Shown here: piece by piece, positions 1 through 18,013 of the stretch
How the letters are laid out: each line of letters opens with the position of its first letter
How positions within the stretch are numbered: position 1 is the stretch's first letter
Assembly (NCBI GenBank): GCA_905182555.1
Contig: CAJJBX010000009.1
Span: forward strand, 124,001 to 188,000
Reading direction: 5' to 3'
Origin: an uncultured Ilumatobacter sp.
Lineage (GTDB): Bacteria > Actinomycetota > Acidimicrobiia > Acidimicrobiales > Ilumatobacteraceae
DNA length: 64,000 nt
Program-made: the position numbers and the translations under genes
The notes under the pieces: generated by a model
The model's database searches: none
Told to the model about the DNA's origin: nothing
The model's input: the letters and a program-made list of their open reading frames with translations, nothing else

Positions 1-271
1 CGCCGGTCGACTTGGCGAGCGACTCGAACCCGAATGGTGAGAAGCCGTACGGGTAGCCAGGCTCCGGGAATTCGATCTGCCGCTTGTCGTAGTCAGCAAG
101 CGCGAAGAACTCCGCAGCATCGTTCCACGCTGCATCAGCGATCGACCGTTCGATCGAGTTCAGCGGGATACAGAAGAACCCGACTTGCTCACACGCCCTC
201 GCCATGGTGCGAGCCTGGTCTTCGATCGGTGCCGTCAGGTCGATCACATCCAGATGCATCTGCGATTCCAT
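1..271 (-). CDS. 2OG-Fe(II) oxygenase (isopenicillin N synthase-like), N-terminal part
   Basis: This gene runs off the left edge of the window, so only about 90 N-terminal residues are visible; it is absent from the ORF track for that reason. The reading MESQMHLDVIDLTAPIEDQA, followed by ARACEQVGFFCIP and later FFALADYDKRQIEFP, matches the N-terminal domain that precedes the catalytic barrel in isopenicillin N synthase-type non-haem iron dioxygenases. Such enzymes use 2-oxoglutarate or a related route to oxidise small molecules; the substrate cannot be told here because the His/Asp iron ligands lie outside. The start is taken as ATG at 271; an in-frame ATG at 259 is possible. An octanucleotide repeat array ends about 37 bases upstream of the start. 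Confidence 0.75.
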   Translation of the reverse strand, partial: MESQMHLDVIDLTAPIEDQARTMARACEQVGFFCIPLNSIERSIADAAWNDAAEFFALADYDKRQIEFPEPGYPYGFSPFGFESLAKSTG

Positions 272-307
272 CAGGGAACGATACGCGCGCCACGCCGTCC
301 ACCGTGA

Positions 308-420
308 CCTATCACCCTATCACCCTATCACCCTATCACCCTATCACCCTATCACCCTATCACCCTATCACCCTATCACCCTATCACCCTATCACCCTAT
401 CACCCTATCACCCTATCACC
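308..420. repeat. 8-bp tandem repeat, about 14 copies
   Basis: The unit CTATCACC (read as CCTATCAC and so on) repeats perfectly with period 8 over 113 bases, about 14 copies with no mismatch. It lies immediately upstream of the minus-strand oxygenase start and is not coding: on the minus strand the unit contains TGA and TAG, and the plus-strand ORFs that cross it are low-complexity artefacts. Because 8 is not a multiple of 3 and copies are identical, the tract should vary in length by slippage. Confidence 0.97.
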
Positions 421-880
421 TGCCGCCCGCCATCGGGGAACGACTACGACGAGATCCGGCTGACCGCTGCCTATTTCGAACTGGAGGGGGTCAACTGGGG
501 CGGTCCTTGTCGACATTTTACGGGCTGCAAGAACGGCGCACCTCGATGTCAGGGTCTGGATTCGTATTCACGATGTGCGACGGTGCTCGGACCTGCGGTA
601 TCGAAGATGCTTACGTGACCGAACCGACCAATGTTGACGCCGGGGCATCACTGGGAGCGCTGTACCTCGGCGGCGTCCGCGCATCGACTCGGGCAGCGGG
701 CCAGCGTCTCGTGGCGCGCAATGACGACGCCCTTCGCTGCGCCGACCACTTCTTCGCGGCGGATCGCGTACCCCACCGGGCCACCGGCCTCTGAGCAATC
801 GCTGCGAGGCAGTCTCCATTTCAGTGAGCAGGTGTGAATATCGGATTTCGGTGGGCGTGGGTGGGGATAGCCTCCGTCGG
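421..880. other. Intergenic stretch, no recognisable gene
   Basis: About 460 bases between the repeat array and gatC. A plus-strand frame starting at ATG 547 and ending at 794 would give an 82-residue protein (MSGSGFVFTMCDGARTCG...) with high third-position GC, but it matches no family I know and has no clear ribosome site. The long minus ORF 568-1215 overlaps gatC and is a shadow. The gatC promoter should lie in the right-hand part. Confidence 0.4.
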
Positions 881-1189
881 GTGCCAGATGTCCCCAAGAT
901 CAGCGCCGCAGATGTGAGCAAGGTGGCCACCTTGGCCCGGCTCTGTCTGACCGACGACGAGTTGACCACTGCGACTGCCGAACTGTCGGCGATGCTTGAC
1001 CATTTCGCCGACATCGATGCGCTCGATCTCGACGGCGTTGAGCCGATGATGCAGCCGACGCCACTTGCCAATGTCATGCGCGAAGACGTCGAGGGCGAGA
1101 CGCTCGATCGTGACGAAGTGCTCGGACAGGCGCCTCTCGTCGAAGACGGCCGCTTCCGAGTGCCGCCGATCCTCGGGATCCAAGAGTGA
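881..1189 (+). CDS. gatC: Asp-tRNA(Asn)/Glu-tRNA(Gln) amidotransferase subunit C
   Basis: Small subunit of the GatCAB amidotransferase, which converts misacylated Glu-tRNA(Gln) or Asp-tRNA(Asn) to the correct amidated form in the cytoplasm. The product (about 102 residues) shows the family pattern KISAADVSKVATLARLCL near the N terminus, a helical middle and the C-terminal DGRFRVPPIL that wraps GatA. The ORF track begins at 824, but similarity to the family starts only at PKISAAD, so GTG 881 is preferred. It is the first gene of gatC-gatA-gatB; gatA begins a few bases after its stop. Confidence 0.93.
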   Translation: MPDVPKISAADVSKVATLARLCLTDDELTTATAELSAMLDHFADIDALDLDGVEPMMQPTPLANVMREDVEGETLDRDEVLGQAPLVEDGRFRVPPILGIQE

Positions 1190-16848: not shown

Positions 16849-17427
16849 ATGGCTCGAACTCGCGATGTTTCTGGTGCGCGCACCGCCAACACCTACTCCG
16901 CCGACATGAATCATCACATTCTGTCCGTCCTTGTTCAGAACCGACCTGGAGTCCTTGCTCGTGTGTCTGGTTTGTTCGCACGGCGTGGCTACAACATCTT
17001 CAGTCTTGCTGTGGCGCCGGCTGAAGAAGAGGGCCGCAGTCGGATCACGATCGTTGTCGACCTCGACTCGGCACCGCTCGAACAGATCACGAAGCAGCTG
17101 TTCAAACTGATCGATGTCATCAAAATCTCGGAACTCGACCCGTCGCGCAGCGTCGAGCGTGAGCTGCTCATCGCTACTGTCAAGGCGGCCGGCCCGAAAC
17201 TGGCTGACGTGTCGACCCTGGCCGAGATCTTCGAAGGCAAGATCATCGCCGTTGCTGAGGACCTTGTCACCGTCAGCCTTGAGGGTCACCCCGACAAGCT
17301 GGACGATTTTGAGGATTTACTCGGCCGACATGGCATTGTTGAGCTGCAGCGGACCGGTCGTGTGGCTTTGCCCAAGCTCGACCGAAGCTCGCGTCATCGC
17401 TCAACCGCACTGAGGCAACCGCACTGA
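16849..17427 (+). CDS. ilvN: Acetolactate synthase small (regulatory) subunit
   Basis: Regulatory partner of IlvB; it raises activity and carries the valine feedback site. The N-terminal ACT domain reads HHILSVLVQNRPGVLARVSGLFARRGYNIFSLAV, and the C-terminal domain includes ERELLIATVKA and VTVSLEGHPDKLDDFEDLLGRHGIVELQRTGRVAL. ATG 16849 is preferred (AAGGA 11 bases upstream); ATG 16837, inside the end of ilvB, is in frame and would give four more residues. The tail RHRSTALRQPH reads through a small direct repeat. It shares the ilvB attenuator. Confidence 0.93.
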   Translation: MARTRDVSGARTANTYSADMNHHILSVLVQNRPGVLARVSGLFARRGYNIFSLAVAPAEEEGRSRITIVVDLDSAPLEQITKQLFKLIDVIKISELDPSRSVERELLIATVKAAGPKLADVSTLAEIFEGKIIAVAEDLVTVSLEGHPDKLDDFEDLLGRHGIVELQRTGRVALPKLDRSSRHRSTALRQPH

Positions 17428-17521
17428 GGCAACCGCACTGAGGCACGAGCCTTCGCGCCACGCTGTCAGAACCCACTCCAGCCCCAAGCCCCAGGCTGGC
17501 GCTGGTGACGCTGGTGACGCT

Positions 17522-17816: not shown

Positions 17817-17830
17817 GGCGGGGATGGGGG

Positions 17831-17885
17831 AATTGGAGGGGAATTGGAGGGGAATTGGAGGGGAATTGGAGGGGAATTCGAGGGG
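17831..17885. repeat. 11-bp tandem repeat, five copies
   Basis: AATTGGAGGGG occurs four times in succession and a fifth time with one change (AATTCGAGGGG). The array sits between the ilvY remnant start and ilvC, where the regulator-binding and promoter region would normally be. Low-complexity ORFs across it ([11 protein letters not shown]) are artefacts. Confidence 0.95.
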
Positions 17886-18013
17886 AGCGAGAAGAGGGAG
17901 GGGAGTGCTGCATAAAGCAGGATGAAGCATTGCATATATGTCAATTTCCGAAACGACCACCGACCGTTAGGATCAGGTCGTCCAACCGTTCGACCTCCGA
18001 TGGAGTCCACCCC

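Follow-up and report, generated by a model that had tools for sequence, protein, structure and literature searches.

Introduction

In Haemophilus, Neisseria and Moraxella, classical contingency loci carry slippage-grown repeats of 1–8 bp next to or in genes. These loci belong to surface or restriction-modification genes, and different strains retain the repeats. In Mycobacterium tuberculosis, tandem repeats are found in the promoters of lpdA, cysG-efpA and dop. For lpdA and cysG, the reported frequency of copy-number change is 1e-2 to 1e-3 per chromosome, and more repeat copies give higher lpdA expression (PMC12817950). Xanthomonas and Nostoc contain 6–9 bp repeats, for example (GGGAATC)n and (GGGGAYT)n, respectively, which form dispersed families with many loci (186 in one Xanthomonas; PMC4692102).

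The array described here lies in a 64,000-nucleotide stretch of DNA, referred to as the window, from an uncultured Ilumatobacter sp. (assembly GCA_905182555.1, contig CAJJBX010000009.1, positions 124,001–188,000). Like the M. tuberculosis repeats, it is an actinobacterial array just upstream of a gene with a promoter of the leaderless type (predicted here), at 36 bp compared with 12 bp (lpdA) and 29 bp (cysG). The M. tuberculosis repeats differ in that they consist of 54–58 bp units in few copies that vary within the species, whereas the present array consists of 14 copies of an 8-bp unit and is known from one genome sequence. It shares with the Xanthomonas and Nostoc repeats a perfect, short, G-rich and intergenic structure, quadruplex potential and a length change among close relatives, but occupies a single locus. 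Its likeness to the classical contingency loci lies in the short perfect repeats; unlike those loci, it is missing in a sister genome and is located beside an uncharacterised oxygenase gene. The locus thus places an array next to a predicted leaderless promoter in an actinobacterial lineage in which the sister genome supplies the array-free state.

A perfect octanucleotide array occupies a single locus

The array, (CCTATCAC)x14.1, spans window positions 308–420 (113 bp, period 8, 100% match), in agreement with the perfect fourteen-copy array described in the initial annotation, and reads (GTGATAGG)n on the minus strand. The CCTATCAC unit is found in tandem at this one locus of the source genome, a 2.56-Mb draft of 26 contigs with an estimated completeness of 73%, and a search of 222 family genomes, its own included, found no CCTATCAC array in the other 221. 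With a single locus, the array does not behave as a member of a dispersed, STRR-like repeat family. Array statistics were obtained from 468 kb of the source genome (about 18% of the total), in which 14 arrays of period 5–12 and at least 24 bp were detected, compared with none in an order-2 Markov shuffle of the same sequence. The array has the properties of a satellite: its short unit is perfectly repeated head to tail beyond chance expectation, and its turnover is lineage-specific, as the array is missing in the sister genome (G004) and the other family genomes searched.

Among 84,980 species, 13 stretches contain at least four copies of the exact CCTATCAC unit, mostly in cyanobacteria such as Microcystis, with a maximum of 8.8 copies, and the exact unit was not found in viral contigs. 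Arrays in Microcystis, Geminocystis and Okeania thus share the identical unit in 4–8 tandem copies but belong to unrelated bacteria, and this recurrence is most likely convergence. In Microcystis, the octamer is found at several loci, at times close to an array of a second octamer, AAGTGGGG, and these loci resemble a dispersed repeat family (contigs L066–L069 and L071–L075 from Microcystis, Geminocystis, Okeania and Paraprochloron).

An imperfect 18-bp direct repeat brackets the array at positions 268–285 and 430–448 (shuffle p about 0.003), and its 268–285 copy spans the start codon of the adjacent oxygenase gene. This repeat might stem from an old duplication and has no further explanatory value.

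The array lies against the predicted promoter of an oxygenase gene

The gene on the left side of the array encodes a 317-residue 2OG-Fe(II) oxygenase with DIOX_N and 2OG-FeII_Oxy domains. Its 5' part covers window positions 1–271 on the minus strand, and the gene runs on to the left of the window (full extent L002:5318–6271, minus strand). Among proteins of solved structure, a 2OG-dependent ethylene/succinate-forming enzyme and thymine dioxygenase are closest to the oxygenase, and no NCBIfam model names it. Its dN/dS value against the G004 orthologue is 0.146, and the gene is therefore under purifying selection. The oxygenase ATG is located at position 271 of the minus strand, and 36 bases separate it from the array, in agreement with the coordinates and the gap to the start codon given in the initial annotation.

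A putative -10 box of the oxygenase, TATCGT, is located at positions 278–283 (minus strand), 6 nt from the ATG as in leaderless genes, and is conserved in G004. In the source genome, TAnnnT boxes 6–8 nt before candidate starts are 10 to 49 times commoner than before internal control codons, an enrichment that resembles the leaderless-gene signature of M. tuberculosis (PMC3898074). The oxygenase is thus likely to have a leaderless promoter at 278–283. If a 17-nt spacer is assumed, the -35 element of the oxygenase falls at positions 301–306, and the array starts two bases farther out, directly against the predicted promoter. By this sequence-based prediction, the array would take the place of everything upstream of the core promoter and leave the core promoter itself uninterrupted.

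On the other side of the array, gatC, the first gene of gatCAB, occupies positions 881–1189 of the plus strand. A putative -10 box of gatC, TAGCCT, is located at 868–873 (plus strand), 7 nt from the GTG at 881, and is found at the equivalent position in G004, G010, G005, G001 and G002. A scan of window positions 200–900 for consensus sigma-70 promoters or terminators found none, which is expected because the predicted promoters are of the TAnnnT type.

The two strands of the array differ in coding potential. The TGA and TAG codons that the initial annotation had assigned to each copy are present on the minus strand, where stops occur in all three frames, but not on the plus strand, which is open in all three frames as (PITLSPYH)n. 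A (PITLSPYH)n peptide was considered as a product and rejected, since it has no Pfam match and the segment is missing from G004. The array lies outside the oxygenase frame and contains minus-strand stops, which upholds the earlier view that it can act only outside the coding frame and leaves no place for translational, frame-shifting contingency. If the array matters, it tunes transcription; it cannot switch the frame. No match to known RNA families was found in the region, and the predicted RNA fold of the array leader is no better than those of shuffled sequences (z 0.3).

The array lies at the edge of a mostly deleted pseudogene

Within the genus, the content of the slot between the GH36 alpha-galactosidase gene and gatCAB varies. 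In four genomes (G001, G005, G006 and G009), the slot contains a gene for an Eis-like GNAT acetyltransferase of about 395 residues with Acetyltransf_9, Acetyltransf_17 and SCP2_2 domains, which in G001 is located directly upstream of gatC. Both the source genome and G004 have genes for an MFS transporter and the oxygenase in the slot, and G010 has the MFS gene alone. Across the orthologous loci (L002:1931–10133 and L076–L083), the slot is a gene-exchange hot spot of the genus, with MFS, oxygenase, Eis-like GNAT and citrate-synthase-like genes.

Two remnants of the Eis-like acetyltransferase gene are found on the plus strand to the right of the array, in different frames. The first, at positions 521–580, corresponds to residues 280–299 of the acetyltransferase (E between 3e-4 and 3e-5 when 610 bp were searched). 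The second, at positions 639–794, corresponds to residues 345–395, roughly the C-terminal 51 residues of the protein (56–58% identity, E 4e-12), and ends at the GNAT stop codon. An intact GNAT gene was not found in the 73% complete draft of the source genome. Because the remnants are frameshifted and no other part of the gene is left, the array is placed at the edge of a mostly deleted pseudogene. A mobile insert was also considered as the origin of the segment and rejected, as it has no ends, a second copy is absent and its right part is a gene remnant.

The sister genome retains the gene arrangement without the array

In G004, the oxygenase is 90% identical to that of the source genome at the amino acid level and likewise faces gatC, but the distance between the two genes is 108 bp, compared with 609 bp in the source genome. 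Homology between the two genomes extends to window position 296 and restarts at 812. The 515-bp segment in between (297–811), which includes the array and the acetyltransferase remnants, is replaced by about 14 bp in G004. Because G004 has neither the array nor the remnants, neither is required for the oxygenase/gatC arrangement. Moreover, the repeat tract is not kept among relatives, since the only close orthologue of the oxygenase, that of G004, lacks it. The 297–811 stretch was most likely deleted in G004, because the acetyltransferase is the older occupant of the slot. The array itself may have originated either before or after the split from G004.

Tandem arrays are common in the source genome and turn over between sisters

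The array had been considered unusual for a high-GC actinobacterium, a view that neither the 14 arrays in 468 kb of the source genome nor the M. tuberculosis repeats support. The same 468 kb also contains ATGCCAx25.3, CCGTCTCACx15.2, CGATACCGGGTTx7.5 and several 10- and 11-bp arrays, and several arrays of the genome are located inside long open frames. By comparison, the complete relative G006 has no array longer than 60 bp in 400 kb of its sequence, and all its arrays there have a period of 6 or 9. Seven of the eight arrays that were compared with G004 have no counterpart array there, and the remaining one has 2.4 copies in G004 versus 3.3 in the source genome; this comparison leaves out two arrays with only partial flank matches. 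The CCGTCTCACx15.2 array is located at L096:15285–15421 (G000:C3), and G004 contains only two dispersed single copies of its unit. The array therefore expanded in the source lineage, and the two dispersed CCGTCTCAC copies in G004 likely represent its seeds. The source genome has a mismatch-repair gene of the NucS type; NucS acts to a limited degree on insertions and deletions.

The perfect ATGCCAx25.3 array at L088:972–1123 (G000:C9, about 80972–81123) starts where homology with G004 stops, and its locus measures 656 bp (the array and about 507 bp) compared with 46 bp in G004, a layout like that of the 308–420 locus. Elsewhere in the window, three arrays with 14-, 9- and 11-bp units are clustered within 500 bp (17402–17445, 17500–17521 and 17827–17886, respectively); the comparison covered the 14- and 11-bp arrays, and both are missing in the sister genome.

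The array is probably a neutral satellite grown by slippage

The array is probably a lineage-specific satellite that grew by slippage in the DNA of a decaying Eis-like acetyltransferase gene and is neutral. Replication slippage would have stretched a short chance repeat in DNA freed of coding constraint, and the array would have come to lie close to the oxygenase promoter owing to the small size of the slot. We infer the slippage mechanism, population-level variation in copy number and the absence of a selected function. The variable slot, the GNAT remnants in two frames, the array-free G004 genome, the 14 arrays in 468 kb and the seven of eight arrays that are absent from G004 all argue for this neutral satellite. 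Pointing the other way, fourteen perfect copies imply recent expansion or upkeep, and the array lies directly at a predicted promoter, on the side where the M. tuberculosis promoter repeats act. In addition, an extended -10 motif recurs along the strand that faces the oxygenase, and other long arrays of the genome could be functional too.

Even a neutral array may have a side effect on oxygenase expression when its copy number changes beside the predicted leaderless promoter. Such an effect is plausible because phase variation has been reported for M. tuberculosis repeats that precede leaderless genes, with lpdA expression increasing with copy number (PMC12817950). If neutral, the array cleanly illustrates how a satellite can grow in the DNA of a pseudogene, and it warns against calling every promoter-proximal repeat a switch.

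Alternative explanations

A promoter tuned by copy number is an unlikely alternative. Slippage would change the number of units beside the leaderless promoter and thereby the level of oxygenase transcription, as at the M. tuberculosis promoter repeats, and each of the 13 TGATAGGGT units may serve as an extended -10 element and add an upstream start. The array is suitably placed, 36 bp from the ATG and about 2 nt past the expected end of the -35 element, in a genome in which predicted leaderless TAnnnT promoters are common. The thirteen overlapping TGATAGGGT motifs (positions 314–415, minus strand; motif matches of the TGnTAnnnT, extended -10 type) face the oxygenase, and TGnTAnnnT occurs on the correct strand 13 times in the array versus 41 times in the whole 468 kb, array included. 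Promoters with TGnTAnnnT are the stronger ones in M. tuberculosis, where a conserved -35 element is not seen (PMC3898074), and the repeats upstream of the leaderless lpdA and cysG genes are reported to be phase-variable (PMC12817950). Set against these points, the oxygenase is present without the array in G004, the array sits in pseudogene debris and it resembles many other arrays of the genome, several of them in open frames. The promoter phase switch proposed in the initial annotation thus survives in part: the array adjoins a probable promoter (TATCGT, conserved in G004) and has an actinobacterial precedent, but a dedicated switch is at odds with the pseudogene location, the absence of the array from the sister genome and the other family genomes searched, and its being one of many lineage-specific arrays. 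If copy number does alter expression, the promoter-repeat mechanism of M. tuberculosis would also apply in an actinobacterium only distantly related to it, with a unit that is much shorter and itself bears a -10 motif.

A more specific version, in which the array arose in pseudogene DNA as 13 extended -10 elements (TGATAGGGT) stacked at 8-bp intervals and each unit gained or lost adds or removes one start site of a copy-number-tuned oxygenase promoter, is doubtful. When its eight letters are permuted, 7.6% of the resulting units would repeat an extended -10 motif (either strand), as would 1.2% of 8-mers drawn at random from the genome; the TGATAGGGT match is suggestive but was picked after the fact. 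We know of no array of multiplied -10 elements of this stacked-promoter kind.

The G-rich strand, (GGGTGATA)n, might fold into G-quadruplexes that stall replication and so promote array growth, or that affect oxygenase transcription; we regard this as improbable. The oxygenase coding strand contains 13 GGG runs and three successive G3-N5 quadruplex motifs (314–415, minus strand). The 5-nt loops of these motifs predict only modest quadruplex stability, which counts against a role for them, and about 14% of random genomic 8-mers, when repeated, give such a motif. Xanthomonas and Nostoc are enriched in G-rich 7-bp repeats with quadruplex potential (PMC4692102), but the other long arrays of the source genome, ATGCCA and CCGTCTCAC, contain no GGG run, and quadruplexes are therefore unnecessary for array expansion in this genome.

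The source genome is a draft of 26 contigs and 73% completeness, and the exact CCTATCAC unit also occurs in contigs of Microcystis and other cyanobacteria. An assembly artefact or a wrong copy number, caused by collapse or chimerism of the repeat, is nevertheless very improbable, as both flanks are collinear with the genus (the oxygenase on the left, the GNAT remnant and gatC on the right), the 113-bp array fits within one ordinary read and other species reach at most 8.8 copies of the unit.

Two minor observations concern the minus strand of the array. Each unit, as minus-strand RNA, contains GGUGAU, a sequence complementary to the usual 3' end of 16S rRNA. The same strand also reads as GTG ATA GGG TGA mini-frames, in which stop and start codons overlap (GTGA).
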